A stretch of DNA of 40,710 bases from a virus. The DNA is taken from positions 1-40,710 of IMG/VR virus record IMGVR_UViG_3300037264_001113; one strand, 5' to 3'. Position numbers and translations under genes: made by a program. This document shows, piece by piece, positions 3,407 through 38,009 of the stretch. The first letter of the stretch is position 1. Each line of letters opens with the position of its first letter. The notes under the pieces are model-generated. The model saw only the letters and a program-made list of their open reading frames with translations. It searched no databases and had not been told where the DNA came from.

Positions 3407-5017
3407 TTAAGCTGTCCTGCCCCACGCGCCGCGAACGGATGCGTTTGTCGCCGCGCTCCCGGCTTGCCGTCGAAGCTCTACCGCGTATTCCCTGACGGCG
3501 TTCGCCGGTGTGATCGTGCCGGAGTCGTAGATCGTCGGCGTCGTGGACGCCACGGTCGATGTCAGCAGGGCTAACTGCGCGGCCGTGGTGATGTCGTATA
3601 TCCGGAGTTCAGCGTAACCAGTCGCGCCCGGAGTCGTCGCCCACATACTCGCGGTAAAAACGAAGCCCTGGGGGAACATCGCCAGCAAGTTTACCTTGAA
3701 ACGCGTGATTTCCTGGAACGTGGTCGAGTTGGTCTGATCCAGTCCCGTCTGGAAAGCCGTCGCGATCGTCGGATGTGCGACCGCGTAGGCGACTTCGGCG
3801 TCCGTGTTTGTCGCGTCCACGGGAAGCCCGTTCGCGTTCGCTTGAAGTATCTTTCCATTCGTCGCCGTGGATGTATGATCCGGCGTCGACGTGATCGAAT
3901 GCTGTCGGGCGTGACTGGCCGGGATCAGCACAGCAAGCGCCGCGTCGATCTGGGGATGGGTGTTCACCCCGATATCGGTCAGGTTGAAATGGGATCCGCC
4001 GCTGAACATCCCGTCCGCGACATGGTGTTCCCCGGTCGCCGTTAATTCCATATTCGACGCGCCCGACAGTTCCCAGACCATATCGACCATGTGTTCGGCG
4101 GTCCCGGTCAGCGCCATCATGGACGCGCCGAAGTTGTTCGCTTCGCTGTAACTGTCGGCGGTCGCGGTCAGTTCCATCAGCGACGATCCGGACAGCGACG
4201 GCGTCGAATTCTGGGCGGTCGCGGACAGCGACATGATCGACGCGCCAGAACACGCGATCGGCCCGGACAGCGCGGCGACGGCCGACAGAACCATGATCGA
4301 ATTGCCGAACATTTCAAAAACCGTTCCTTCGTACGGGCGAAGGGAAACACCGATGAAGCTGTATTCGGCGAATGCGTACGACGGCCCGGGGTCGTTCGCG
4401 GTCATCAGGACTGAACCCGTCGCGCCCGGAATCGTGAATCCGAAAGCCTGAACGTTTAGGGCGTTTACTCCCCCGGTTCCGTTCTGCGCGTCTTGCCAAA
4501 CTTGACTTACAGGCGGAACGACTCCGTAATCTCCGGTTCCGATTCGTCCGGACATGGCGACGAACACCAGTTCGCCGACGTTGGTCGGTACGTCCAGCGT
4601 TGCGTCCGGCGCGATCGCGGTTGTCACCCCGGACGCCGTGACGTACGAACCGAATGGCCCGTCCTGGTCGATCATATCGAACGACGACGCGCAAACGATA
4701 AGCGCCGCGGTCGTCCCATTGGTAAGCGTGATCGTTCCGGTGACGTTGGCCGCGCCGACCGGCGGCGCGACCATGTACCAGACCGCGTCGTATTGGTAAT
4801 CGGCCGACACGTCCCCCAGCAAGGTTAACGCGACCCCGCCGTATTGAATGTCGCTGGAAGCGACCGGGTTCGGTGTTCCGTCGAAGGTGTTCGCGTGTAC
4901 CGTTACCAGCAGAAGGCGGGCGGTCCCCGCCGGCGTCGCGTGAGCGAACGGGGTTATTGCCGCGGACGGTCCCGCGACGATTTCCTTCCCGATCGTATTC
5001 GACGCGAACGCCGGCAT
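3407..5017 (-). CDS. Tail fibre-like protein with internal repeats, 536 aa
   Basis: A 536-residue structural protein. Residues 1-230 form a beta-rich domain. From about 235 to 350 there are five imperfect repeats of 20-30 residues with the theme SGxSxMxLTATA (SGASIMSLSATA, SGSSLMELTATA, FGASMMALTGTA, SGASNMELTATG, SGGSHFNLTDIG). The part after HPQIDAALAVL (about 355-420) resembles stretches common in phage fibres before the tip, and the last 110 residues look like a beta-sandwich head. It lies between two other fibre genes. It most likely binds the host surface or links the fibre to the tail. Confidence 0.6.
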   Translation of the reverse strand: MPAFASNTIGKEIVAGPSAAITPFAHATPAGTARLLLVTVHANTFDGTPNPVASSDIQYGGVALTLLGDVSADYQYDAVWYMVAPPVGAANVTGTITLTNGTTAALIVCASSFDMIDQDGPFGSYVTASGVTTAIAPDATLDVPTNVGELVFVAMSGRIGTGDYGVVPPVSQVWQDAQNGTGGVNALNVQAFGFTIPGATGSVLMTANDPGPSYAFAEYSFIGVSLRPYEGTVFEMFGNSIMVLSAVAALSGPIACSGASIMSLSATAQNSTPSLSGSSLMELTATADSYSEANNFGASMMALTGTAEHMVDMVWELSGASNMELTATGEHHVADGMFSGGSHFNLTDIGVNTHPQIDAALAVLIPASHARQHSITSTPDHTSTATNGKILQANANGLPVDATNTDAEVAYAVAHPTIATAFQTGLDQTNSTTFQEITRFKVNLLAMFPQGFVFTASMWATTPGATGYAELRIYDITTAAQLALLTSTVASTTPTIYDSGTITPANAVREYAVELRRQAGSAATNASVRGAWGRTA

Positions 5018-7931: not shown

Positions 7932-8170
7932 TCCTGCACCCTGGGCGCCGGCGCGGCCGGCGGGGTCTTCCAGATTTTCATGCCTTCCTTCCCCGCGTGT
8001 ACGCCGCCCACGATCCCCAGCGCCCCCAGCAACGTCATCCCGACGTCCTTCAGGATTTCCAGACGGGTCGGATCGTATAACGCGATCGCAAGCGTCGCGA
8101 TCCACGCGGCGAACAGCCCGACAATGATGTAATTATGCAGATTGTCGGACAGCAGAGCGTTCAACGTCAT
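7928..8170 (-). CDS. Holin-like membrane protein, 80 aa
   Basis: A short protein with one clear membrane segment (IIVGLFAAWIATLAIALY, about residues 15-33) and a second weaker one (GMTLLGALGIVGGVHAG, about 44-60), then a polar Pro/Ala tail. Size, two hydrophobic helices and position just before the endolysin fit a class II holin. The ATG at 8170 shares its A with the previous stop (TGATG); a GTG one codon upstream is possible. Holin is inferred from topology and context, not family identity. Confidence 0.55.
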   Translation of the reverse strand: MTLNALLSDNLHNYIIVGLFAAWIATLAIALYDPTRLEILKDVGMTLLGALGIVGGVHAGKEGMKIWKTPPAAPAPRVQE

Positions 8171-26795: not shown

Positions 26796-27797
26796 CTAGC
26801 GTGTCAAGCTCTGTTGCCAGCGATCGAAAGACACCCGAACGATCGCCATCGGTTCGTTCGTTGCGGGATCCCGGGCGACCATGTCCCCGGGGTCCGCGGA
26901 AGGTTCCGCATATTCCCCGGCAAGCTTTTTCCACGATTTCGCCATGTGTTTCCACCAGCATCGACAGCGGGGATGGGCCGGGATGTCGTAAACGGCATCG
27001 GCAAACGCCTTCCCTTCCTGGGACCGGCAGATGGGACAGACCCGTTCGTCGTCCATCGTCTGCCAGTACCGTTCGTCGATCAGCCCGCCCCAGTCGGCGA
27101 CGAACTGGTCGTCGGCGTCCGCGATCGCGACCTGAACTTCCGTCGAAATCAGGCGCTTCATAACCGCGGTGATATCCAGCGGTCCGGCCTTCGCGTTTGC
27201 GATGCGGGCCGCGGCCTGGTCGGGCGTGTCCCCGGTCATCGCCCCGATCGTCATCCCGGCGAACGCTGAAGCGCCCCAAGCCTTCAGGTATGAATCAAGG
27301 CGCGACTCCGGGGACGCGACGGGCTTCCCGGCCTGGTCGTGATCCTGGGCGCCCGCGGGCGCGTCGGTGAACCACGATTCCCGAACGCCGATGTTACGCC
27401 GCGGCCGACTGGTCGGATGGTATTCGGTCGATCGCTTCGGCCGAACGACTATATTCGGCGGGGTCGTCTGGTCCAGTACCCAATGATCCAGAAGGAATTG
27501 ATAACGGAACGCTTGCCAGCAGGCCGTATTTAGGCATCGAATCGCGTACTGTCGGAAAACCTTTACCGCGTTCCCTGCGAAGAAGTTTATTTCGTTCTTC
27601 GTCGCCTGGGCGACAGCCGGGGATTCGCCGGCGTGTTTCAAAGCCCACGACCCGGCGGCGTACGCCGCGATCGCGCCGACCGTGTCGCGCCAGGTGTCGA
27701 TGATCAGTCGGGTCGCGGGAAATTCGACGCGATTCCGAAGAATCTTCTTCGCTTCCATCGACAGGGCAAGCGCCGCCTGGGACTGGTTAATCGTCAT
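26796..27797 (-). CDS. Phage Mu F-like head morphogenesis protein, 333 aa
   Basis: A minor head protein carried in the capsid. The signature lies near the C-terminus: TMDDERVCPICRSQEGKAFA, then YDIPAHPRCRCWWKHM; the CxxC and the CxC pair are typical zinc ligands of MuF proteins. Residues 1-200 are mostly helical. The gene overlaps the large terminase by 11 bases and precedes the portal in the operon, the normal association. No fused toxin domain is visible. Confidence 0.8.
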   Translation of the reverse strand: MTINQSQAALALSMEAKKILRNRVEFPATRLIIDTWRDTVGAIAAYAAGSWALKHAGESPAVAQATKNEINFFAGNAVKVFRQYAIRCLNTACWQAFRYQFLLDHWVLDQTTPPNIVVRPKRSTEYHPTSRPRRNIGVRESWFTDAPAGAQDHDQAGKPVASPESRLDSYLKAWGASAFAGMTIGAMTGDTPDQAAARIANAKAGPLDITAVMKRLISTEVQVAIADADDQFVADWGGLIDERYWQTMDDERVCPICRSQEGKAFADAVYDIPAHPRCRCWWKHMAKSWKKLAGEYAEPSADPGDMVARDPATNEPMAIVRVSFDRWQQSLTR

Positions 27798-29307
27798 ACC
27801 TGGGGATCCACGCCGACCCGCCCCGCTTGTGTGCGACCCGGCCGGCGCCGCGGATGACGTTCTCGTTCCCCGATATAAGCACGGGATCAGTATCCCCGTT
27901 CCGAATCAAATGTTCAAGGGCGTCCGCACAATCGACCGTGTCGCCCGGGAAGTCCTGTATTTCTCGGGCCAGTTCTTCGTTCCCTTCGTCCCGTAACTTG
28001 ATCTTGTGATTGCTCATGGGCGGGTTCAGGGTCGACGTGATCCGGCTTATTTTCTCCCGTGTCGTCTTCTTCTTCTTCCCGCCCGACATATATTCGACCA
28101 TGATCGAAGAAGCTTTCAGGGGGATCGACGTCGTCTTCGTCACGATGGATTTGTATATTTTCCCGAACGCCGCTTCTTCGATGAACTGAACCGCGCATTT
28201 CCAGACCTTCTGAACGTCGACGATGTTCGCCAGGAGCGTGTCCCAGCCCCAGCGTCCGGCCCTGGTCTGAAGTATTGACCAGTCCTTGTTTTTGTGTAGT
28301 CCCCCGACCACGATCGCAGACCGGGCGCCGATCTTAAGGTCCGATTCGGTCATCGCTGGATCGATACCCGCGGCGACCTTGATGATCTCGCCGCGAACGT
28401 GCCAGACGCCGTTCGTCATTTCCATCGCGGCCGACGGGAAGTATTCCGGTTCAGGAAGAAGCCGGTCTTCCTTCCTGGACTCCTGAAGCTGGTACTGACG
28501 GGAGAATATCAGCGGCTTCATCATCGCCTTGCGGACTCTCTCCCAGGGCCAATGCTCCGCCCATTGAACTATTTTCCGATCCATATCGATAACCAGCGGC
28601 CACTTCCGGGAATACCAGCGCCCGGACTTGTCCTTCGCGACGCGGTTCGGAAGGTCGTCATTGTGATAGGTCGTATGAACCAGAACGATCGTCCCGTCCT
28701 CTCTCATCATCGGTTCAAGCGTTGAATCCAGGGCGCCCTGAAGCTTGTCGCGCTGGATCCGGGACTCGACGTGCAACGGGTCGACCGAATCGTCCACGAC
28801 GGCGAACGACAGCCGCGGCCCGGGCGGGATCGATAGGAGTCCGGACGCGCGAAGGGACGGGTTCTTCACGTCCCGGGCGCCAGCTAGAACGAACTCGTCG
28901 TCGGCCCATTTCGACCCGCGGCGGGGATTGAAGTCCCGCTTTATCAACAGGTTGCGTTCAAGTTCTTCGCGTATTTGGCGAAGGCGCATCTTCGCATCGT
29001 CATCAGACGGCCCGAAAATTCCGCCCGACTCGTCGTATTCCGCTTCGCCCTTGGTCTTCAGGAACAGCCAACAGCAAAGCCGGCGCAACGGGTATGCGAT
29101 CGCCCAGAAGGTCGACTTCGCGCTGTCGCGGTGTGCCTGAATGTTCAGCCGGTCCAGGTCGGACAGGGATAGGGCGTCCCAGTCTTCATGCATCCGGGCA
29201 TCAGGAAGCGGAAACAGGTGTTTCAGGTATCGATGGTTAAAAGCCCGCTGGGAAGCCAGGGCGTCGGCCAGGGAAGGTTCGGGAAGGCGGCGTTGCTTTC
29301 GGGCCAC
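27787..29307 (-). CDS. terL: Terminase large subunit, 506 aa
   Basis: The motor and nuclease that package DNA. The ATPase part has IQAHRDSAKSTFWAIAYPLR (residues about 55-74) as a deviant Walker A with Arg-Asp-Ser-Ala-Lys-Ser-Thr, and PRLSFAVVDDSVDPLH as Walker B. The nuclease part begins with KVAAGIDPAMTESD (catalytic Asp about 310) and closes with DFPGDTVDCADALEHLIRNG (Asp about 470). Starts at GTG 29307. Upstream is the small terminase and downstream MuF and portal. Confidence 0.85.
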   Translation of the reverse strand: MARKQRRLPEPSLADALASQRAFNHRYLKHLFPLPDARMHEDWDALSLSDLDRLNIQAHRDSAKSTFWAIAYPLRRLCCWLFLKTKGEAEYDESGGIFGPSDDDAKMRLRQIREELERNLLIKRDFNPRRGSKWADDEFVLAGARDVKNPSLRASGLLSIPPGPRLSFAVVDDSVDPLHVESRIQRDKLQGALDSTLEPMMREDGTIVLVHTTYHNDDLPNRVAKDKSGRWYSRKWPLVIDMDRKIVQWAEHWPWERVRKAMMKPLIFSRQYQLQESRKEDRLLPEPEYFPSAAMEMTNGVWHVRGEIIKVAAGIDPAMTESDLKIGARSAIVVGGLHKNKDWSILQTRAGRWGWDTLLANIVDVQKVWKCAVQFIEEAAFGKIYKSIVTKTTSIPLKASSIMVEYMSGGKKKKTTREKISRITSTLNPPMSNHKIKLRDEGNEELAREIQDFPGDTVDCADALEHLIRNGDTDPVLISGNENVIRGAGRVAHKRGGSAWIPRYDD

Positions 29308-29325: not shown

Positions 29326-29892
29326 TTATTTCGGCGCTTCTATCCCCCGGGCTTTCCCGATCTGTTTCAGGAACTGCCCGACCGTTACGACCCGGGCGTT
29401 CGGCGCGTTGATCTGCACGGGCGCCGCGGCTTCCCCGCCCCGGGATTCAGCTAGGATCGCCGCGGTTTCGACCTTCACGGCCTGTTCGATTAGCTTGACG
29501 ATCGTTCCGGACAGTTCTGCCCCGACGCCGATCGCTTGAAGGGCCGCTGAATAGTCCGTTCGTTCGCCGATTTCGTCGCCGTCCTTATCGAATACGGGAA
29601 TCTTAAAGTCCGATCCCTGCACGACTTTAAGCCCCAGTTCGACCAGCTTGTTCCCGGCGTCCTGTCGCTTCCGAATCCAGTCGACGAACGTGTCGGCCTT
29701 CCGTTTGCGAAGTTCCGTCAGGATGTCCGATAAAAGGTTTTCTTCGAACCGTCGGCGGGACGCGACCCAGCCTTCCTTCGCCGCCCGATTCTTGACCGTC
29801 GTTAGGTTCACCTGGTACTTCGCCGCGATGTCGTCCAGGGTTCGAAGCTGTCCGGTTTCGTAGAGCGCCCGGATTTCCTTCCAGGGGTACAC
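29326..29892 (-). CDS. terS: Terminase small subunit, 188 aa
   Basis: It recognises phage DNA and activates the large subunit. Residues 1-45 carry a helix-turn-helix (EIRALYETGQLRTLDDIAAK, then QVNLTTVKNRAAKEGWVASR), a very common opening of small terminases. Helices of the oligomer part follow (LLSDILTELRKRKADTFVDW). GTG at 29892 follows AAGGG; a TTG at 29940 overlapping the previous stop would add 16 residues and is also possible. Confidence 0.75.
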   Translation of the reverse strand: MYPWKEIRALYETGQLRTLDDIAAKYQVNLTTVKNRAAKEGWVASRRRFEENLLSDILTELRKRKADTFVDWIRKRQDAGNKLVELGLKVVQGSDFKIPVFDKDGDEIGERTDYSAALQAIGVGAELSGTIVKLIEQAVKVETAAILAESRGGEAAAPVQINAPNARVVTVGQFLKQIGKARGIEAPK

Positions 29893-29936
29893 GGTAGCCC
29901 TTGTGTCGCCCCCTTTCAGCTTCGCAAGCTTACCTG

Positions 29937-30108
29937 TCAAGGCTTTATTGCCTTCACGATTTTCGGTTTCCGCGTCCCCGCGGCGCCGCGAAGGTAAGTC
30001 GCTTCCAGCACCCGCGCTATCCTGTCGCCGGCGCGGGGAGGGAACACGACGTTCTCGTAAACGTCGGAATAGGTGTGTCGATAAAGCCAGTTAATCAGTT
30101 TCCGCGCC
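29937..30108 (-). pseudogene. Duplicated C-terminal fragment of the 67-aa gene at 31796-31999
   Basis: The frame reads LINWLYRHTYSDVYENVVFP and on to VLEATYLRGAAG, nearly identical to the protein at 31796-31999, then ends TRKPKIVKAIKP. There is no start codon in this frame, which begins in -1 phase to the short gene at 30095-30223. It seems to be a pasted 3' end. Only a frameshift could express it. Confidence 0.65.
29968..30108. repeat. 141-bp direct repeat, copy 1 (partner 31827-31967)
   Basis: Same length and orientation as 31827-31967 with about five mismatches. Both encode the C-terminal part of a small basic protein. Homology breaks sharply at both edges. Confidence 0.9.
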
Positions 30109-30223
30109 TTCGCCCGTGCCTCGTTGTACGCAATCCACGCCGCGCCATGTAGCCCTCACGCCATTTCGCGTATTCCTTCCCCCTACGGCACTTGATGCGC
30201 TTTGGCGGCTTGGGGATTATCAC
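30095..30223 (-). CDS. Small basic protein, 42 aa
   Basis: A GTG overlapping the previous stop by GTGA opens a 42-codon frame (VIIPKPPKRIKCRRGKEYAK, then WREGYMARRG). The start and first 25 residues look real: basic, like small phage nucleic-acid binding proteins. The last part lies where the 141-bp repeat begins; in the -1 frame the DNA continues as AYNEARAKARKLINWLYRHT, a better-looking protein. So the gene may be a frameshifted fusion or a recombinant end. Confidence 0.45.
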   Translation of the reverse strand: MIIPKPPKRIKCRRGKEYAKWREGYMARRGLRTTRHGRRRGN

Positions 30224-30585
30224 AGCCCCGCCTCTTCCCGCATCTGCTCGACCGCCGCCACGACTCGCGCGCACTGTTCCGAGTTGAAACTTCCGATATG
30301 CACTTCCGAGCGCGGCATCCCGAGAACTTGCCCGAGCCAGTGATACGCGGAATTGCGCCTCATTCCCATCGAGCGCCATAGACCGTCGAAGGCACCGTGT
30401 GCCGCCATTCGCGCCAGCTTTGTAGCCGCGTTCGCCGGGATACCTAGCGGCGTGCCGTCGGGGTGCGCCCCGTGCGTCCCCCGGCAGATCGGGAAACGTG
30501 AACATCCGAAAAACTTGCCATACCGCGAATCCCGCAGGACCATCGGAGCCTGACATTCTCCGCACGCTGGCGGCTTCGACACCAT
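30220..30585 (-). CDS. Topoisomerase-type zinc-finger protein, 121 aa
   Basis: Residues 8-35 hold CGECQAPMVLRDSRYGKFFG followed by CSRFPICRGTHGAHPDG, the zf-C4_Topoisom plan (two Cys pairs with FFGCSRFP). The second half (ATKLARMAAHGAFDGLWRSM, then WLGQVLGMPRSEVHIGSFNS) is a helical part seen in DUF3268-type phage proteins. DNA or RNA binding is likely; the precise role is unknown. It starts by TAATG overlap and ends by GTGA overlap. Confidence 0.7.
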   Translation of the reverse strand: MVSKPPACGECQAPMVLRDSRYGKFFGCSRFPICRGTHGAHPDGTPLGIPANAATKLARMAAHGAFDGLWRSMGMRRNSAYHWLGQVLGMPRSEVHIGSFNSEQCARVVAAVEQMREEAGL

Positions 30586-30803
30586 TACGCGCCCTCCCCC
30601 TTCACCGCGCCCACGGGCTTGATCGTCACGGGGTGCGCCTTATACTCACCGCACGCCACATCAGTATGCCCCGTTTGATCCGCAAACCGTTCCCCGGCTT
30701 TCATGTTGTCGCATTCCATCGTGTGACTGTTCAGCCACGAGCAATCACCACACCGGAAATATCGCCCGCACTTAGAGCACTTCTTCGGCTTACCAGTTTT
30801 CAT
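30585..30803 (-). CDS. Cys-rich small zinc protein, 72 aa
   Basis: GAAGGGGGAGCG precedes the ATG. CSKCGRYFRCGDCSWLN (residues 9-25) gives two Cys pairs and HTMECDN another Cys-His set; a further Cys lies near residue 51. It is likely a zinc-ribbon phage protein. The C-terminus is polar. It is the gene directly after the DNA methyltransferase and is coupled by TAATG to the following zinc-finger gene. Confidence 0.55.
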   Translation of the reverse strand: MKTGKPKKCSKCGRYFRCGDCSWLNSHTMECDNMKAGERFADQTGHTDVACGEYKAHPVTIKPVGAVKGEGA

Positions 30804-30845
30804 CGCTCCCCCTTCATCACGCTATCCGTGACGGTTTGCGAACGT

Positions 30846-31595
30846 TTAGCGCGGTGCATCTGCCAACCTCCCCATCAGGATATTCCATGCTGTCGCCGCC
30901 ACGATTGGAACTTGTCCATTGCCAATGGCTTTAAGTCGGTCCACTCGATGGGCCACCCCATTAGCCACTCGACCCACGCCGGATTGATGCTCTGGCATCC
31001 AAGTTTTTTCCCTTCCTCCTCGCCCAGCATCCTGTATAATTTCGCCCGATTCCCCGATCCTCCTGCTAGTCCCGTTGCGCCTCCCGTCCCCTGGTTGCTT
31101 GAGGGAGTGGGCCATAATCCACAGTCTTTTCCGTTTGTGCGGCGCTCCGCAGTCGTCCGCGCCCAACACAATCCACTCCGCATCGTACCCGAGCGCGGCC
31201 AGGTCCCCGAGAACGGTATCCAGCCCCCGTCCAGTGAGAGCTGGGACGTTTTCCACGAACGCAAATTGCGGTCGTACCTCGCCAATGATCCGGGCCATTT
31301 CGGTCCAGAGTCCTGATCGTGCGCCCGTGATTCCTGCGCCCTTTCCTGCAATACTGATGTCCTGGCACGGAAACCCTCCCGATACAACGTCAACAACTCC
31401 TGTCCACTCTCTGCCGTCAAAGGTTCGCACATCGTCCCATATCGGGAAGGACGGGAGGATGCCATCTTCGTGCCGTTGCTGGAGGACGGCGCGGCAATAG
31501 GGGTCGATCTCGACAGCGCAGACCGTGCGCCACCCAAGCAAGTGGCCCCCAAGTATACCTCCTCCAGCGCCCGCGAACAATGCCAGCTCATTCAT
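30846..31595 (-). CDS. dcm: C5 cytosine-specific DNA methyltransferase, 249 aa
   Basis: Transfers a methyl group to cytosine C5, probably shielding phage DNA from restriction. Motif I is LALFAGAGGGILGGHLLGW (residues 4-22), motif IV GGFPCQDISIAGKGAG (catalytic Cys about 76), motif VI FVENVP, motif VIII CGAPHKRKRLWIMA, and motifs IX-X GVGRVANGVAHRVDRL then AIGNGQVP. The target domain between VIII and IX is very short. No partner endonuclease is visible, so it is an orphan enzyme. The ATG at 31595 overlaps the previous gene by eight bases behind GAAGAGG. The same DNA holds a second long frame. Confidence 0.85.
   Translation of the reverse strand: MNELALFAGAGGGILGGHLLGWRTVCAVEIDPYCRAVLQQRHEDGILPSFPIWDDVRTFDGREWTGVVDVVSGGFPCQDISIAGKGAGITGARSGLWTEMARIIGEVRPQFAFVENVPALTGRGLDTVLGDLAALGYDAEWIVLGADDCGAPHKRKRLWIMAHSLKQPGDGRRNGTSRRIGESGEIIQDAGRGGREKTWMPEHQSGVGRVANGVAHRVDRLKAIGNGQVPIVAATAWNILMGRLADAPR
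30875..31591 (-). CDS. Overlapping frame inside the methyltransferase gene, 238 aa
   Basis: Open for 238 codons in a second frame, starting at an ATG that overlaps the upstream stop by ATGA (31591-31588). The product carries ESGQELLTLYREGFRARTSV, then DSGPKWPGSLARYDRNLRSW, WPRSGTMRSGLCW, GLWPTPSSN and INPAWVEWLMGWPIEWTDLK. From memory, separately annotated phage proteins share this order (SGQELLT, WPTPTASD-like, LNPxWVEWLMGxPxGWT). Most of it is the shifted reading of conserved methyltransferase motifs, so this may be overprinting or an annotation shadow that recurs in databases. Expression is not shown. Confidence 0.4.
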   Translation of the reverse strand: MSWHCSRALEEVYLGATCLGGARSALSRSTPIAAPSSSNGTKMASSRPSRYGTMCEPLTAESGQELLTLYREGFRARTSVLQERAQESRAHDQDSGPKWPGSLARYDRNLRSWKTSQLSLDGGWIPFSGTWPRSGTMRSGLCWARTTAERRTNGKDCGLWPTPSSNQGTGGATGLAGGSGNRAKLYRMLGEEEGKKLGCQSINPAWVEWLMGWPIEWTDLKPLAMDKFQSWRRQHGIS

Positions 31596-31791
31596 ACGCC
31601 TCTTCCCCGTGCACGGGACACGTTGGATCAGGGTCGGGGTCCCAGTTGTGGACAGGACATGAATTGCTTTTTAACGCAGGATTCGTATCGGGACTCTGAC
31701 AGTCGCATACGACGGGGCATGTACAGATTTTGTACCGCCCCAACTTAATTAATAGCCATTTAATCGCGCGGTGCATCCCACCCTGTTTCAC
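31588..31791 (-). CDS. Cys-rich zinc-like protein, 67 aa
   Basis: Contains ICTCPVVCDC and NSCPVHNWDPDPDPTCPVHG, giving several Cys and CPVH pairs fit for zinc. The GTG at 31791 lies directly after the CRISPR-like repeat, and GGGGA inside that repeat could be its ribosome site; an internal ATG at 31776 is the alternative. It overlaps the methyltransferase start. Short CPVH proteins are common near phage methylase genes, with unknown function. Confidence 0.55.
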   Translation of the reverse strand: MKQGGMHRAIKWLLIKLGRYKICTCPVVCDCQSPDTNPALKSNSCPVHNWDPDPDPTCPVHGEEAYE

Positions 31792-31820
31792 CGGTTCATC
31801 CCCGCGCGCGCGGGGAACAC
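31792..31820 (-). repeat. Solitary type I-E CRISPR-like repeat, candidate RNA anti-CRISPR unit
   Basis: Read on the minus strand (the gene direction) these 29 bases are GTGTT, the palindromic core CCCCGCGCGCGCGGGG, then ATGAACCG. Against the Escherichia coli type I-E repeat as I remember it, 25 of 29 bases agree, including the stem and the 3' handle ending ACCG. No second copy or spacer-sized array is present. It lies at the junction of two small genes and supplies the stop TGA of one of them. Transcription from the operon would give a crRNA-like hairpin with a 5' handle. Confidence 0.8.
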
Positions 31821-31999
31821 CGCTTGTTCCGCATCCCCGCGGCGCCGCGAAGATAGGTCGCTTCCAGCACCCGCGCTATCCTGTCGCCGGCGCGGGGAGG
31901 GAACACGACGTTCTCGTAAACGTCGGAATAGGTGTGTCGATAAAGCCAGCTAATCAGTTTCCGCGCCGTCCTTTCCGCCGCTTTCCTGGTCGTCGTCAT
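31796..31999 (-). CDS. Small basic helical protein, 67 aa, ending in the CRISPR-like repeat
   Basis: ATGA overlap at 31999 sets the start: MTTTRKAAERTARKLISWLY, then RHTYSDVYENVVFPPRAGDR and IARVLEATYLRGAAGMRNK. The last seven residues, CSPRARG, and the stop codon are encoded by the CRISPR-like repeat, replacing the tail seen in the duplicated copy at 29937-30108. No family is recognised; basic and helical, possibly nucleic-acid binding. Confidence 0.6.
   Translation of the reverse strand: MTTTRKAAERTARKLISWLYRHTYSDVYENVVFPPRAGDRIARVLEATYLRGAAGMRNKRCSPRARG
31827..31967. repeat. 141-bp direct repeat, copy 2 (partner 29968-30108)
   Basis: About 96% identical to 29968-30108 and in the same direction. 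Its lower edge is only six bases from the CRISPR-like repeat, so the same recombination event may have placed both. Confidence 0.9.
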
Positions 32000-32540: not shown

Positions 32541-32713
32541 CGCCTGGCCGCCTTGAACATCGTTCCGCATGGACAGCGGAACACGTCCGGAATCGGCCCC
32601 ACGACAATTAAAAGCCCGTCCTTTCCGCCGATTGCCCGACATATTTGTCGCCACGTCATTACACGATGACCCTTGACCCGTCCGCATTCGGGACAGCGTA
32701 GTTTCGCCTTCAT
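32537..32713 (-). CDS. Zinc-ribbon protein, 58 aa
   Basis: CPECGRVKGHR near the start and FRCPCGTMFKA near the end form a two-knuckle zinc ribbon, with a helix between (TWRQICRAIGGKDG). ATGA overlaps at both ends tie it to the glycosyltransferase upstream and the small gene downstream. Single-ribbon proteins of this size in phages are often transcription or DNA-binding helpers; the exact role is unknown. Confidence 0.55.
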   Translation of the reverse strand: MKAKLRCPECGRVKGHRVMTWRQICRAIGGKDGLLIVVGPIPDVFRCPCGTMFKAARR

Positions 32714-33780
32714 CCCGCGATCTCCCGCATCAGGTCCGCCCGCCGGCGGTTCACCATCGACAGCGTCAACGTCTTCTGGATGTGCTCCCAGGCGGCGCCG
32801 TTCATCTCTCCCGCCGTGCGGCTGTCTATCGACGAGTTCGCCGCCAGGTTCGCCGCGAACGCGAAACAGGGCGCCGTTCGGTCCCCGTCGTTCAACTTCC
32901 CGTAATATACCGATCCGACAGTCGGCCATTCCGGCCAGTTCGGCCCCACAGTCAGCGCCCCTGCGTACGTTGCTTCGATCCAGGCGATGTTGCTTTTCGC
33001 CCGGTTAAATGCGTTGTCCTGAAGCGGGACGATGACCGCCCGCGGCCGGAATGCCTTCAGCCGGCGAAGGTATTCGACCACGTCGCAAGCTTCAGCGAAT
33101 CGGATGTTCTTCTGGACCGCGGGATCGACCCGCTTCGCCAGCGACCAGGGCGTAAAGCCCCAGAACAAGAACTGCGTTTTCGGGTTCTTTTCGACCGCGT
33201 CCATGATCGCGTCCGCGTGTTCTTCGATGTCCGCGACATGGGTATTCGACCCGCGCCAGATGACAAGGTCGTTCCGCGGGCCGGCCGGTTCGTCCCAACT
33301 GCGGTCCCCGCATATGCGATCGTCCAGGGCGTTCGGGACGACTTCGATCCTGGACGTGATCCCCCGGGCCCTGAAGACTTCCTTCAGGACTTGCGTCGAC
33401 ACCGTTACCAGGTCGGCCCGTTCGATGATCCCCAGCATCCGGGCTTGATTCTTCGGGTCCGCGTACGTTCCGAACGCCGGATTCGAAATCGGGATCGACA
33501 TGAAGTCGTCGTCCCAGTCGATCCAGACCTTCACGCCGTTTTTCTTCGCCAGGTCGACCAGACCCGCCGCCTGTTCGTCGTGCGGACGCTGAAGGAAGAA
33601 CACGTCGACCAGCTTACAAAGCGACCAGTCGAATTCATGCGCCAGCAGGAGTTCGATTTTGCCCTTCCGGTGAAGGTCGCCGAAGGGACCGTAAGCCCGG
33701 TAAAAGCTGGAAGCGTTCGTGCTGTTCGGAACGATCGGACAAATCCGGATCCGGCGCGGGGTAAACAGCGGTATTTTCAC
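32710..33780 (-). CDS. Glycosyltransferase, GT4-like, paralogue B, 356 aa
   Basis: Probably transfers a sugar from a nucleotide donor. Residues 15-130 include NASSFYRAYGPFGDLHRKGK, DVFFLQRP and VKVWIDWDDDFMSIPISNPA. The C-terminal half has IEVVPNALDD, VIWRGSNTH, QFLFWGFTPWSL and AVIVPLQDNAFNRAKSNIAW, fitting a GT-B fold. The same motif order occurs in the gene at 34953-35993. Starts at a GTG in GTGA overlap with the methyltransferase. The acceptor (DNA, virion protein or host glycan) cannot be read from sequence. Confidence 0.65.
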   Translation of the reverse strand: MKIPLFTPRRIRICPIVPNSTNASSFYRAYGPFGDLHRKGKIELLLAHEFDWSLCKLVDVFFLQRPHDEQAAGLVDLAKKNGVKVWIDWDDDFMSIPISNPAFGTYADPKNQARMLGIIERADLVTVSTQVLKEVFRARGITSRIEVVPNALDDRICGDRSWDEPAGPRNDLVIWRGSNTHVADIEEHADAIMDAVEKNPKTQFLFWGFTPWSLAKRVDPAVQKNIRFAEACDVVEYLRRLKAFRPRAVIVPLQDNAFNRAKSNIAWIEATYAGALTVGPNWPEWPTVGSVYYGKLNDGDRTAPCFAFAANLAANSSIDSRTAGEMNGAAWEHIQKTLTLSMVNRRRADLMREIAG

Positions 33781-34349
33781 GACGGCTTCCGGGCGATCAG
33801 GCAGACGTTCAGGAAGGCGGGGCCGTTCGCCGATCGCGGATCCTGGGCGCTCACGATCGTTGCCGGGAATTCGTACGCGGCGTCGATGATGGTCAGTCCG
33901 CCGAATTCCTGAAACAACAGACGAAGCGAATCGATCGTGTAGCGCCAGTAGTCCCAGGGATAGGCATGAAGCGGGAAGGTCTGATGGGTCTGGACGAAAA
34001 ACAGTCCCCCAGGCTGAAGCACCTTCCCGATCTGTTCCGCCGCCAGCCAGGGCCGCTGAATGTGTTCGAACGTCGAACAGGATATGACGACGTCCGCCCA
34101 GCGGTGTTCGGCGCCGGCGCTTACCAGGTCGCGGAACAGGTTTTCCGCGTTGGCGACGACATCGACGTCCGCCCCGGGTTCGAAGTCGATCCCGACCCAT
34201 GCCTTCGCCTGGGGTATCCATTCCTTGTGCATCGTGCAACGGTCCGGGATGGACCGCTTCGTTCCCAGTTCGAAGACGATCGGATCGATCAGGTGCGAAC
34301 AGAGTTCGATGAACGGCGCGGACAGGTTCTTCGGCGTTGGCGCGATCAT
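33777..34349 (-). CDS. Class I SAM-dependent methyltransferase, 190 aa
   Basis: Rossmann-type signature: VFELGTKRSIPDR (motif I region, residues about 25-37), WVGIDFEPGADVDVVANAEN (acidic ribose-binding part), VISCSTFEHIQRPWLAAEQI and VLQPGGLFFVQTHQTF (motif with PGG). This is the plan of small methyltransferases of the Methyltransf_11 type. It sits among glycosyltransferases with ATGA and GTGA overlaps, so it may methylate the sugar or its acceptor. The motif I glycine pattern is weak (GTK rather than GxGxG). Confidence 0.65.
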   Translation of the reverse strand: MIAPTPKNLSAPFIELCSHLIDPIVFELGTKRSIPDRCTMHKEWIPQAKAWVGIDFEPGADVDVVANAENLFRDLVSAGAEHRWADVVISCSTFEHIQRPWLAAEQIGKVLQPGGLFFVQTHQTFPLHAYPWDYWRYTIDSLRLLFQEFGGLTIIDAAYEFPATIVSAQDPRSANGPAFLNVCLIARKPS

Positions 34350-34951
34350 AGTTTTTCGACCTCCAAGTTATATTTTTCCTTCAGCAGATTCCAGCCGTAA
34401 TCCTGACGCGAATAGTCCCCTTCATGGGTCCGGTAACTGTCGGCGAATTTAGGCGCCCGCCCCATCCCGCCGTCGATCCCCAGCGTGAATATTTTCCGTA
34501 TCCCGTGCATGGCGAGAATGTGAACGACCGCTTCCGTCGTCGATGCGTACGCCTGAACGACTTCCCGTGTCGGCCAGTTGCGTTCATGGGTCGTTCGTAA
34601 GTCGTACGACATGAGCATTCCCAGCCGCGCCAGGGCGTCCAGGTGCCGGTCGAATTTCCCGTACGTCATCAGGTTCCCAAATCCCGGCTGTTCGCGCCAA
34701 TGAGGAACCCAGGGCATGATGACCCCTGTCCGGTTTGAAAGCCGGGATCCGCATTCGACCCAGGGTTCGTAATCGATGAACGCGGCGATTCTGGCGTCGA
34801 TCTGAAGCGCCGCCTGGTTTATGCCGACGGCGTTGAACTTGACGCCCATGTCCGGATCCCAGCGGGCCGACGACGGCCCTTTCCCGACGATCAGGAACGG
34901 CTTCGCGCTGTCGGTGATGGTTCCGATAACGTCCAGAACGTGATCGATCAT
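34346..34951 (-). CDS. DUF115/sialyltransferase-like protein, 201 aa
   Basis: FLIVGKGPSSARWDPDMG (residues 19-36) is a GKGPS loop like those in CMP-sugar glycosyltransferases and the DUF115 (MptE-like) group. VGINQAALQIDARIAAFIDY then follows. The C-terminal half has ASTTEAVVHILAMHGIRKIF and TLGIDGG, also DUF115-like. It lies between the two glycosyltransferase genes, so it probably makes or transfers a sugar in the same pathway. Starts one base after the upstream stop with GGGGGG before it. Confidence 0.5.
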   Translation of the reverse strand: MIDHVLDVIGTITDSAKPFLIVGKGPSSARWDPDMGVKFNAVGINQAALQIDARIAAFIDYEPWVECGSRLSNRTGVIMPWVPHWREQPGFGNLMTYGKFDRHLDALARLGMLMSYDLRTTHERNWPTREVVQAYASTTEAVVHILAMHGIRKIFTLGIDGGMGRAPKFADSYRTHEGDYSRQDYGWNLLKEKYNLEVEKL

Positions 34952-34952
34952 G

Positions 34953-35993
34953 TCATCCCCCCTTTTGCAGATGTTTCAGCAGTTCGAATCGGTACTCGTT
35001 CAGCCTGTTCAGCGCCAGCCCGTCGCCCGGGCGCGGGTCCGCGATCGCGGCCCAGCTTTCCCGGTTGCGTTCGATCGCCTTGTATGCCGTTTCGTGCATG
35101 GCGTGCTTAAGCGTTTGCCCGAATGATTCCACGTTTCCGGGCTTGTAATTCCGGACTCCGGGCTTCTGCCATTGCTCATACGCCGGCGCGACGGTTACGG
35201 CGCCGGCATACGTCGCTTCGATCCAGGCGATGTTGCTTTTCGCCCGGTTGAATGCGTTGTCCTGAAGCGGGACGATGACGATCTGGGGGTTCATCCGGGC
35301 AAGCGCCCGCATATACGACACGACCCCGGACGGTCCGACATAATTAAATTGACATCCATCGGACACGGCCCGTTGTACCGATTCCGTCGCGTACCCCCAA
35401 AACACGAACTGGAACCCGGGATACGATGCGGATGCTTCGCGGATCCCGGGCGCCGCCCAAGACAAATCGTCAGCGTGAGTCGAACTTCCCCGCCACAGTA
35501 CGCGCCGGACCGCGTTCGGTTCCAGTTCGTGCTTTTCCTTTTCCGGCATAAGGTCGGAATCCCAGGCATTCGGCAGGACTCCCGTTCGGGCCTTCGAACT
35601 GGTATACGGCCCCATAGATTCCATCAGCGCCCTGGTCGAAAATGTGACGGCGTCCGCAAGCCCTAGCATCCGTATCATTTTCGCCCGCATTCCTTCTAGC
35701 GTCCCATATGCGTGTGATGGGTTCCCGATCGGAACATTCAGGAAATCGTCGTCGTAATCTATCCAGACCGGAACGCGGTATTCCTTCGCGTTTTCGATCG
35801 ATATCAGGTGATCCGGCCGGCGGGGCCGAAGCACGAACAGAACGTCGATCCCGATCATCATCGACCACGTCACGGGCGCCCGGTTCATCAGCACGACTTC
35901 GACGCCGTGCTTTCGAAGTTCGCGGAACGGCCCGAATGCGCGGTAAAAACTGGTCGCGTCGTCCGGGGAATCAACGACCGCGCCGACGATCAT
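34953..35993 (-). CDS. Glycosyltransferase, GT4-like, paralogue A, 346 aa
   Basis: The ATG at 35993 follows GGAAGGG and overlaps the RusA stop. Motifs in order: SPDDATSFYRAFGPFRELRK, VPVWIDYDDDFLNVPIGNPS, TGVLPNAWDSD, VLWRGSSTHADDL, FQFVFWGYATESV and IVIVPLQDNAFNRAKSNIAW. They align along the whole length with the 356-residue paralogue, and a 64-base stretch near the C-terminal motif is almost identical in DNA. Likely a GT-B sugar transferase with a different donor or acceptor from its partner. Confidence 0.65.
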   Translation of the reverse strand: MIVGAVVDSPDDATSFYRAFGPFRELRKHGVEVVLMNRAPVTWSMMIGIDVLFVLRPRRPDHLISIENAKEYRVPVWIDYDDDFLNVPIGNPSHAYGTLEGMRAKMIRMLGLADAVTFSTRALMESMGPYTSSKARTGVLPNAWDSDLMPEKEKHELEPNAVRRVLWRGSSTHADDLSWAAPGIREASASYPGFQFVFWGYATESVQRAVSDGCQFNYVGPSGVVSYMRALARMNPQIVIVPLQDNAFNRAKSNIAWIEATYAGAVTVAPAYEQWQKPGVRNYKPGNVESFGQTLKHAMHETAYKAIERNRESWAAIADPRPGDGLALNRLNEYRFELLKHLQKGG

Positions 35994-36442
35994 CGCATCC
36001 CTTCCGGTATCGCGTCCCGCGGCGTCCATTCAGTCGGTTCGCCGTCTGGGATCCACATCCGGGACGCTGGTTCGATCGTGACGTGGATCCCGGGCGAAAC
36101 GTACTTCGACGCGACGCCCTGGGAATCGCCGACCCGCTTAATACTTATTATCCGAATGAGCGCCCGACAGTCGTCCCCAATGATCCCGGCCTTCTGCAAC
36201 GAGTCGGCCAGGACTTTTATCAGGTTCTGGGCGTCACGGCGCCGACGGTCCGGCCAGACGACCGCAAGGCTGACCGTAACCCAGCCCGCGATCGGCCGAA
36301 CTCCCCGGGTCAGGTCGTAAACGTACCGATAGAACAGGCGCGTCGCCGGCGACAGCACGAACCGCCGACCCCCGCGGCGGGATGTGAAAAATCCCTTGTG
36401 ATTGTCCGAAGGCGGGAAGCGGTCGAACCAGAGCGTAATCAC
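35990..36442 (-). CDS. rusA: RusA-type Holliday junction resolvase, 150 aa
   Basis: It resolves branched DNA before packaging. FDRFPPSDNHKG (residues 6-17) fits the FxxPPSxNH opening; VVWPDRRRRDAQNLIKVLAD (about 60-80) gives the acidic and Lys residues of the active site, and ADSLQKAGIIGDDC closes it (DxLxxxGxxxDD). Length fits the family (about 120-150). GTG start at 36442 after GGGGATTAAGAC. Next gene overlaps by ATGA. Confidence 0.8.
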   Translation of the reverse strand: MITLWFDRFPPSDNHKGFFTSRRGGRRFVLSPATRLFYRYVYDLTRGVRPIAGWVTVSLAVVWPDRRRRDAQNLIKVLADSLQKAGIIGDDCRALIRIISIKRVGDSQGVASKYVSPGIHVTIEPASRMWIPDGEPTEWTPRDAIPEGMR

Positions 36443-37133: not shown

Positions 37134-37313
37134 CTATCGGCTCCCGCACCGCTGGCACAGTTCTGTTTCATTGTCGATCACGCCCTCGCGGTGGCACAGA
37201 CTGCACTCCTCGTCGTACCGTGTCCCCCGGCTACCCCAGACCCGCGCGATTTTTGGTGCGCTCTTGGGGATCGTGATCCGATTTTCTTTTACAGCCTCTA
37301 GGTCCATTTCCAT
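37134..37313 (-). CDS. Zinc-finger small protein, 59 aa, first gene of the 37.4 kb module
   Basis: AGGAGG stands before the ATG at 37313. The protein starts MEMDLEAVKENRITIPKSAP. The C-terminal half has CSLCHREGVIDNETELCQRC, a clean CxxC ... CxxC zinc knuckle. It is the first gene behind the promoter at 37366-37394 and the leader hairpin. DNA or RNA binding is likely. Confidence 0.65.
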   Translation of the reverse strand: MEMDLEAVKENRITIPKSAPKIARVWGSRGTRYDEECSLCHREGVIDNETELCQRCGSR

Positions 37314-37332
37314 CTCCGCTCCTCCTGGGTCC

Positions 37333-37348
37333 GGGGCTCTCGGTCCCC
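37333..37348. promoter_or_regulatory. Leader hairpin, copy 3 of 3
   Basis: GGGG pairs with CCCC around an eight-base loop, inside the same conserved leader block that precedes the genes at 539 and 841. The loop differs most between copies, while the stem and the ribosome site are kept. Confidence 0.45.
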
Positions 37349-37365
37349 TCGCCTACCACATCTAT

Positions 37366-37394
37366 ATGCTAGCACTAGCTGGCTAGCGTGTCAA
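37366..37394 (-). promoter_or_regulatory. Sigma-70-like promoter with internal GCTAG repeats, copy B
   Basis: TTGACA (37394-37389), 17 bases, TAGCAT (37371-37366), identical to the copy at 897-925. Three GCTAG half-sites fill the spacer and -10 box. It would drive the small cassette genes and rusA. Confidence 0.7.
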
Positions 37395-37458
37395 GTGCCG
37401 CACCTGCCAATACGCCCCATAACCCTATATTTATATGGCTTTTATTGGTGTTTTTATG

Positions 37459-37650
37459 TTAAGTACGGACTTGCGCCGGTTTGCCCCCGGGGACCGCCGG
37501 GACCCGCTCCAGCGCCCCCCGGATGATGCCGTCCACTAGCGCCTCTAGCGTCACGTCCCGATCCACTGCCAGTTTTTTCAGCTCGCGCCACAGCGCACGC
37601 TCCACCCGGATCGTTACCGCAGCAGCCGCTTTTTTCGCTCGCATGGTCAT
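37459..37650 (-). CDS. Ribbon-helix-helix regulator, 63 aa
   Basis: Likely a DNA-binding repressor. AGGAGG and an ATGA overlap set the start. AAVTIRVERALWRELKKLAV gives the beta strand (residues 10-16) and first helix; DVTLEALVDGIIRGALERV the second. This is the Arc/CopG ribbon-helix-helix plan. The C-terminal tail is Pro/Gly-rich. The promoter with GCTAG repeats lies just downstream and is duplicated with it, so self- or module regulation is the natural reading (inference). Confidence 0.75.
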   Translation of the reverse strand: MTMRAKKAAAAVTIRVERALWRELKKLAVDRDVTLEALVDGIIRGALERVPAVPGGKPAQVRT

Positions 37651-38009
37651 CTCGTAGCCTCCTGTCCCGTCGCCGGGTTGTGTGGTGATGCCCTCCATAG
37701 TGGTAGCTCGTCGCCCCCGAAACGCCCCGCCGCGATCCGGCGAAGATGCGCCGCCGCCTTTTCGATTTCCGCGCGGTTCGTCCCGAGGTAGTACCCGCGT
37801 TCGCTCATGCAGATTGGAAAGTCTTCTTCGCGCAACGCTTGCGCCGCTTTTCTCATGGTACGGTCGGACACCTTGACCCGGTTCCCCATCGACCGCTGAA
37901 GCGCCGCCAGGATATGACGGCGCTTCCCGACCTTCGCTTCCCCTGCGTAGAGTTCGCCCATGAGCGCCAGAAGCGCCCGCTTGACGGTTTCGTTCGATTC
38001 GATCTTCAC
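37647..38009 (-). CDS. Winged-helix DNA-binding protein, 120 aa
   Basis: GTG start in GTGA overlap. Residues 10-85 form a winged helix: ETVKRALLALMGELYAGEAK, RRHILAALQRSMGNRVKVSD, RTMRKAAQALREEDFPICMS and a wing SERGYYLGT. This type is common in phage regulators and replication-linked proteins. The 3' end of the gene is repeated at the left edge of the window. The four-gene stop-codon motif resembles its GCGGCGCAT codons (AAAH), pointing to it as the source of those scars. Confidence 0.65.
   Translation of the reverse strand: MKIESNETVKRALLALMGELYAGEAKVGKRRHILAALQRSMGNRVKVSDRTMRKAAQALREEDFPICMSERGYYLGTNRAEIEKAAAHLRRIAAGRFGGDELPLWRASPHNPATGQEATR

Follow-up and report, generated by a model that had tools for sequence, protein, structure and literature searches.

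Genome organization of the carrier phage

The window, meaning the whole 40,710-nt stretch of viral DNA that was analysed, comes from a genuine tailed phage. Genes for the large terminase subunit (TerL), a terS-like protein, the portal and the major head protein are recognised, and all recognisable phage genes are transcribed from the minus strand (Table 1). The region from terS to the major head protein gene is syntenic with a related IMG/VR contig (L005), mostly with 40–50% protein identity and with 26% for terS. The only relatives of the terminase found were in this one contig (L005/L044), plus distant matches in phage records. Neither an integrase nor any cas gene was found among the window proteins searched.

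Direct repeats link the two contig ends (1–141 with 37602–37742, 98%; 832–1098 with 37304–37576, 85%) and are not simple terminal repeats. A further pair of duplicated segments (32922–33036 and 35165–35279, 83%) lies upstream in the same gene run as the locus described below, and falls in the long ORFs 32710–34239 and 34953–36029, the latter of which is glycosyltransferase-like.

Table 1. Features of the window between the terminase genes and gene X1.
Feature	Coordinates	Strand	Basis
Terminase large subunit	27787..29307	-	phrog_38 9e-53; L005 relative 43% identical
Terminase small subunit-like	29326..29940	-	phrog_1206 6.8e-4; same-position relative in L005
X2, second copy of the X core	29968..30111	-	144 nt, 5 mismatches (96.5%); own tail GTRKPKIVKAIKP*, no repeat
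Stretch between the X copies, 1,715 nt	30112..31826	-	self-alignment; repeat 6 nt inside its edge
Zinc-ribbon protein (DUF3268 / Zn_ribbon_Top1)	30220..30585	-	PF11672 1e-23
Cys-rich ORF, 72 aa	30585..30803	-	ORF list; no family match
C-5 cytosine DNA methyltransferase	30846..31595	-	PF00145 2.8e-36; phrog_363 2e-71
Cys-rich ORF, 67 aa	31588..31791	-	ORF list; no family match, no relatives
Solitary type I-E CRISPR repeat, 29 nt	31792..31820	-	exact match to L002 and L003 array repeats
Small gene X1, 67 aa	31796..31999	-	ORF list, frame reading; no family match

A solitary type I-E repeat at the end of a small gene

At the 3′ end of X1, directly before the Cys-rich ORF that follows, is a type I-E CRISPR repeat, GTGTTCCCCGCGCGCGCGGGGATGAACCG (the reverse complement of window 31792–31820). 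It is present as a single copy across the window with up to three mismatches allowed, and none of 100 dinucleotide-shuffled controls gave any match to it. Searches of the window with either half-repeat returned nothing beyond chance, and no further repeat was found within 160 nt on either flank. The exact 29-mer is absent from viral contigs other than the window, and an Rfam search gave no match. Its orientation is that of transcription, since every recognisable phage gene is read from the minus strand.

Solitary repeat units are recognised by an identity and a coverage of 90% or more against a known CRISPR repeat, by about 100 nt free of any other repeat, whole or partial, and by location in a virus or plasmid away from cas genes. 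The window repeat matches at 29 of 29 positions, stands alone over that distance, and lies in a virus in which the proteins searched gave no cas match. The published search for such units masked confident ORFs (Camara-Wilpert et al. 2023, PMC10651486); intergenic position was a filter in that search and is no defining property of the units themselves. The site in the window is not intergenic, since 25 of the 29 nt cover the 3′ end of X1 (ORF 31796–31999). A preliminary description had reported a lone I-E repeat in phage sense with no second copy, which holds with a perfect match that is single in the window; it had also placed the repeat in a phage operon, which is right as to the phage genes, but the repeat overlaps an ORF and the gene run leads into terS/terL.

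The start of X1 overlaps the upstream ORF by the 4 nt ATGA. Its last seven codons and stop (CSPRARG*) are supplied by the repeat, giving the tail ...RNKR-CSPRARG-stop. The GTG start of ORF 31588–31791 is the first base after the repeat, and the repeat's GGGG, 8 nt before this GTG, could act as its ribosome site. Cleavage of type I-E repeats by Cas6e leaves an 8-nt 5′ handle, and in the window repeat the predicted cut falls after base 21, between 31800 and 31799, with AUGAACCG as the handle.

The second copy of the X core, X2, is 1.86 kb downstream of X1. In self-alignment the X1/X2 match ends 6 nt before the repeat, which places the repeat at a rearrangement junction, and comparison of the two tails shows that the original end of X1 was replaced at the repeat site. 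The intervening 1,715-nt stretch may be an inserted or duplicated cassette. A short sequence, CGCGGGGATG, is common to the repeat and to X1 just upstream of it. No relatives of X1 were found in viral contigs and phages. The X2 frame (29968–30220, minus strand) is without a start codon and may be frameshifted from an upstream ORF (30095–30565).

The methyltransferase belongs to a common phage family, and no partner nuclease for it was seen. Ten neighbouring proteins gave no match to acr or aca genes, no HTH gene was recognised beside the repeat, and no counter-defence gene other than this orphan C5 methyltransferase was recognised near it. The methyltransferase was considered as a companion of such repeats and rejected, with an I-E-like repeat in none of 80 related loci. 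The methyltransferase in what had been described as a defence-evasion island is thus real, but the island itself finds little support, because no acr, aca or other counter-defence gene is recognised and the methyltransferase family occurs without such repeats.

Matching CRISPR arrays in bacterial genomes

A scan of 84,980 genomes located the exact 29-mer in three MAGs. In a proteobacterial MAG (L002), an array directly behind a complete I-E set (Cse1, Cse2, Cas7, Cas5e, Cas6e, Cas1e and Cas2e) contains 11 exact copies and another that differs at one position, with a spacing of 61 nt. A Casimicrobiaceae MAG (L003) has 31 exact copies adjoining Cas1e and Cas2e; these two MAGs are unrelated and their array repeats identical. 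In a Gemmatimonadetes MAG (L004), one exact and one imperfect copy are in and behind a short Cse1 ORF with an adjoining cas3-like gene; in this region (L004:4896–5998) the two repeats lie downstream of the cas3-like gene, as though an I-E locus had collapsed by recombination. The comparison with known CRISPR repeats that had been proposed earlier therefore shows that I-E systems with an identical repeat exist, a correspondence at the level of the repeat that does not identify the phage's own host.

No relative of the terminase and no related prophage was found in the three MAGs (G001–G003) or in 398 genomes of one phylum. A survey for wider spread of the exact repeat, which covered 300 genomes from the order to which G002 belongs and 100 genomes related to G001, returned only the known carriers. 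Tetranucleotide comparison was uninformative and did not single out the repeat carriers as hosts. Spacers of L002–L004 and of viral arrays gave only short matches to the window, none convincing as a target, the longest for a true spacer being 19 nt (from L022) and outside the seed end.

I-E-like repeats in other viral genomes

A relaxed I-E pattern matched in 85 stretches of viral DNA. Among 84 loci examined, the window included, 13 are solitary, and the rest have further copies nearby or are close to a contig end. In one contig (L019; IMGVR_UViG_3300029959_000411), an 80-aa ORF that matches DUF7666 contains a solitary I-E repeat (4734–4762, minus strand), which shares the ORF's sense and reading frame; a 69-aa HTH-like gene precedes the ORF. 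In comparison with phage DUF7666 proteins (52 records), 20 of 20 among the matches listed end at residue 60–61, and the repeat begins after residue 60. Two normal DUF7666 proteins that were read are longer than 320 aa, so the L019 gene is truncated. In another contig (L016), a 284-aa, weakly Toprim-like ORF ends in the first repeat of a two-repeat I-E mini-array (8016–8105, minus strand). Together with the window these gene-end repeats are few; overlap with coding sequence is an unusual feature, present in two independent contigs (the window and L019).

Streptomyces phage Piccadilly was considered as a carrier of a solitary repeat and rejected, since four degenerate repeats occur there at intervals of about 60 nt. 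These I-E-like repeats occupy an intergenic gap (L043:2378–2585, about 34593–34800 in Piccadilly), and one copy is also matched in five sister phages; the phage is cultured and this mini-array is testable in the laboratory. Two contigs from different samples (L070:10084–10112 and L108:10772–10800) have one solitary I-E-like repeat, GTGGTCCCCGCACGCGCGGGGATGAGCCG, in common, and the sequences that flank it are identical.

Transcription and predicted RNA folding

No sigma-70-like promoter was found on the minus strand near or upstream of the repeat; read-through transcription from the upstream genes is plausible. The isolated repeat is predicted to form the I-E stem with a probability of 0.98. 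With 20–100 nt of upstream mRNA included, the predicted probability of the canonical stem is 0.004–0.07, and in these models the low value arises because the 5′ arm of the repeat would pair with CGCGGGGAUGCGGAACA just upstream. Other solitary viral I-E repeats folded with 30-nt flanks have stem probabilities of 0.82–1.00 in 10 of 11 cases (two of the ten, L070 and L108, are the same sequence). When the window repeat was moved to 500 random places in the genome the mean was 0.80, and values as low as that observed occurred in 6%. The masked and canonical folds are separated by an energy gap of ~2 kcal/mol, and some genuine array repeats score equally low for the stem; masking therefore counts against a role as an RNA anti-CRISPR (Racr) without excluding it. 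Ribosomes translating X1 to its end would pass through the hairpin.

Possible functions and origins of the repeat

The best single explanation of the window repeat, and our leading reading at just short of an even chance, is that it acts as a Racr. A tailed phage would have captured a solitary I-E repeat, which now makes up the 3′ terminus of one of its small genes. As the end of X1 the repeat would be transcribed with the X1 mRNA, which may run through X1 and the methyltransferase gene and would probably continue into terS/terL. If the host has a matching I-E system, its Cas6e would bind and cleave the repeat hairpin within this mRNA. The upstream cut fragment, which would retain Cas6e on its 3′ hairpin and lack a 5′ handle, could then gather Cas7e into dead-end complexes, for which RacrIF1 with Cas6f and Cas7f is the model. 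The repeat would in that case be a Racr riding on an mRNA, with no dedicated small RNA. Transcription, Cas6e binding, inhibition and host are all things that we infer here. The preliminary description had likewise proposed a candidate Racr: the perfect, lone, in-sense repeat and the matching I-E arrays speak for it, and the lack of a promoter or of acr/aca genes in the searches, together with the predicted masking of the stem, speaks against it.

The main rival, unlikely on balance but one to be taken seriously, is that illegitimate recombination, during the rearrangement of X and its neighbours, fused a fragment of a host I-E array to the phage, and that the repeat is functionless or serves only to end X1. 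In favour are the junction position of the repeat, 6 nt away from where a 144-nt duplication with 96.5% identity ends, and the replacement of the X1 tail; the L019 repeat is likewise exactly at the cut of the DUF7666 gene. CGCGGGGATG offers possible microhomology, and the predicted masking of the stem fits a scrap with no RNA role. It is harder to explain why exactly one whole repeat is present, with no recognisable spacer or second repeat, since a random fragment would rarely be exact at both ends, or why it is both intact and in sense. The junction could also have been put to regulatory use. A Cas6e cut at the predicted position would strip X1 of its stop and free a downstream mRNA starting AUGAACCG, so that X1 would be lowered, and the methyltransferase message split off, only in I-E hosts. 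The predicted cut does leave X1 stopless, the next ORF starts 8 nt after it, and the repeat is exactly at the gene junction; but the predicted masking of the stem counts against a host-dependent switch of this kind, the arrangement may simply follow from the place at which the repeat came to lie, and we consider the switch improbable.

The virus record comes from a sequence collection, and misassembly of host array DNA with phage DNA had been named as grounds for dismissing the Racr reading. This is very unlikely, because the repeat has phage genes on both flanks, and neither flank contains a spacer or a further repeat. In addition, X1 copies X2 to within 6 nt of the repeat, the two sides have similar G+C (0.598 and 0.614), and a 29-nt overlap is shorter than the usual assembly words. 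The repeat might instead be the remnant or seed of a phage mini-array directed against other phages, or an integration site into host CRISPR arrays. Most viral contigs with I-E-like repeats do have at least two copies, and viral mini-arrays are known (PMC11656645), but the 160 nt to each side of the window repeat contain no further copy, the protein searches gave no integrase, and there is scant probability that either applies.

A wider version of the Racr reading, which we regard as a rather long shot, is that phages add solitary repeats, in sense orientation, to the 3′ ends of small protein genes, such that one mRNA would be both message and Racr and a Cas6e cut, in removing the stop, would tie expression of the gene to the CRISPR status of the host. 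Such gene-tail Racrs would form an overlooked class because the published search masks ORFs, and this masking could hide repeats in gene tails. If the window repeat is functional, Racrs extend from small non-coding RNAs to the ends of coding mRNAs that an ORF-masked search skips. If it is not functional, a perfect solitary repeat is by itself weak evidence for a Racr. X1 compared with X2, and L019 compared with intact DUF7666 genes, are clean junction cases for how phages acquire single repeats.

Comparison with known systems

Type I-E Racrs are among those shown to be functional, and prophage repeat units match the subtype of their host in about 83% of cases (PMC10651486). Racrs are often directly behind a promoter, and acr/aca neighbours are common without being required. 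Like the viral mini-arrays (PMC11656645), the window has a host-type repeat in a viral genome with no cas genes; unlike them, it has a single repeat and no spacer. L019 differs from the window in its loop, its DUF7666 gene, an unmasked stem (0.97 with 30-nt flanks) and the preceding 69-aa HTH-like gene, and resembles it in that a solitary I-E repeat falls within the 3′ part of a small gene (truncated in L019) and shares its sense and reading frame.

RacrIF1 is bound and cut by Cas6f, and the upstream cut product collects Cas7f and is without a 5′ handle (PMC10651486). Unlike RacrIF1 and other Racrs, the candidate in the window overlaps coding sequence for 25 nt and ends a gene, no promoter of its own was found and its stem is predicted to be masked; like them, it is one intact repeat in a phage genome, with no cas genes or second copy, and has the exact sequence of a genuine CRISPR repeat. 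A bicistronic RNA carries RacrIC1 along with acrIC5 (PMC10651486). The window differs from that pair in that no anti-CRISPR protein gene is recognised and the repeat is inside a gene end and not beside a gene, and resembles it as a candidate in which the repeat would share a longer transcript with a protein gene.
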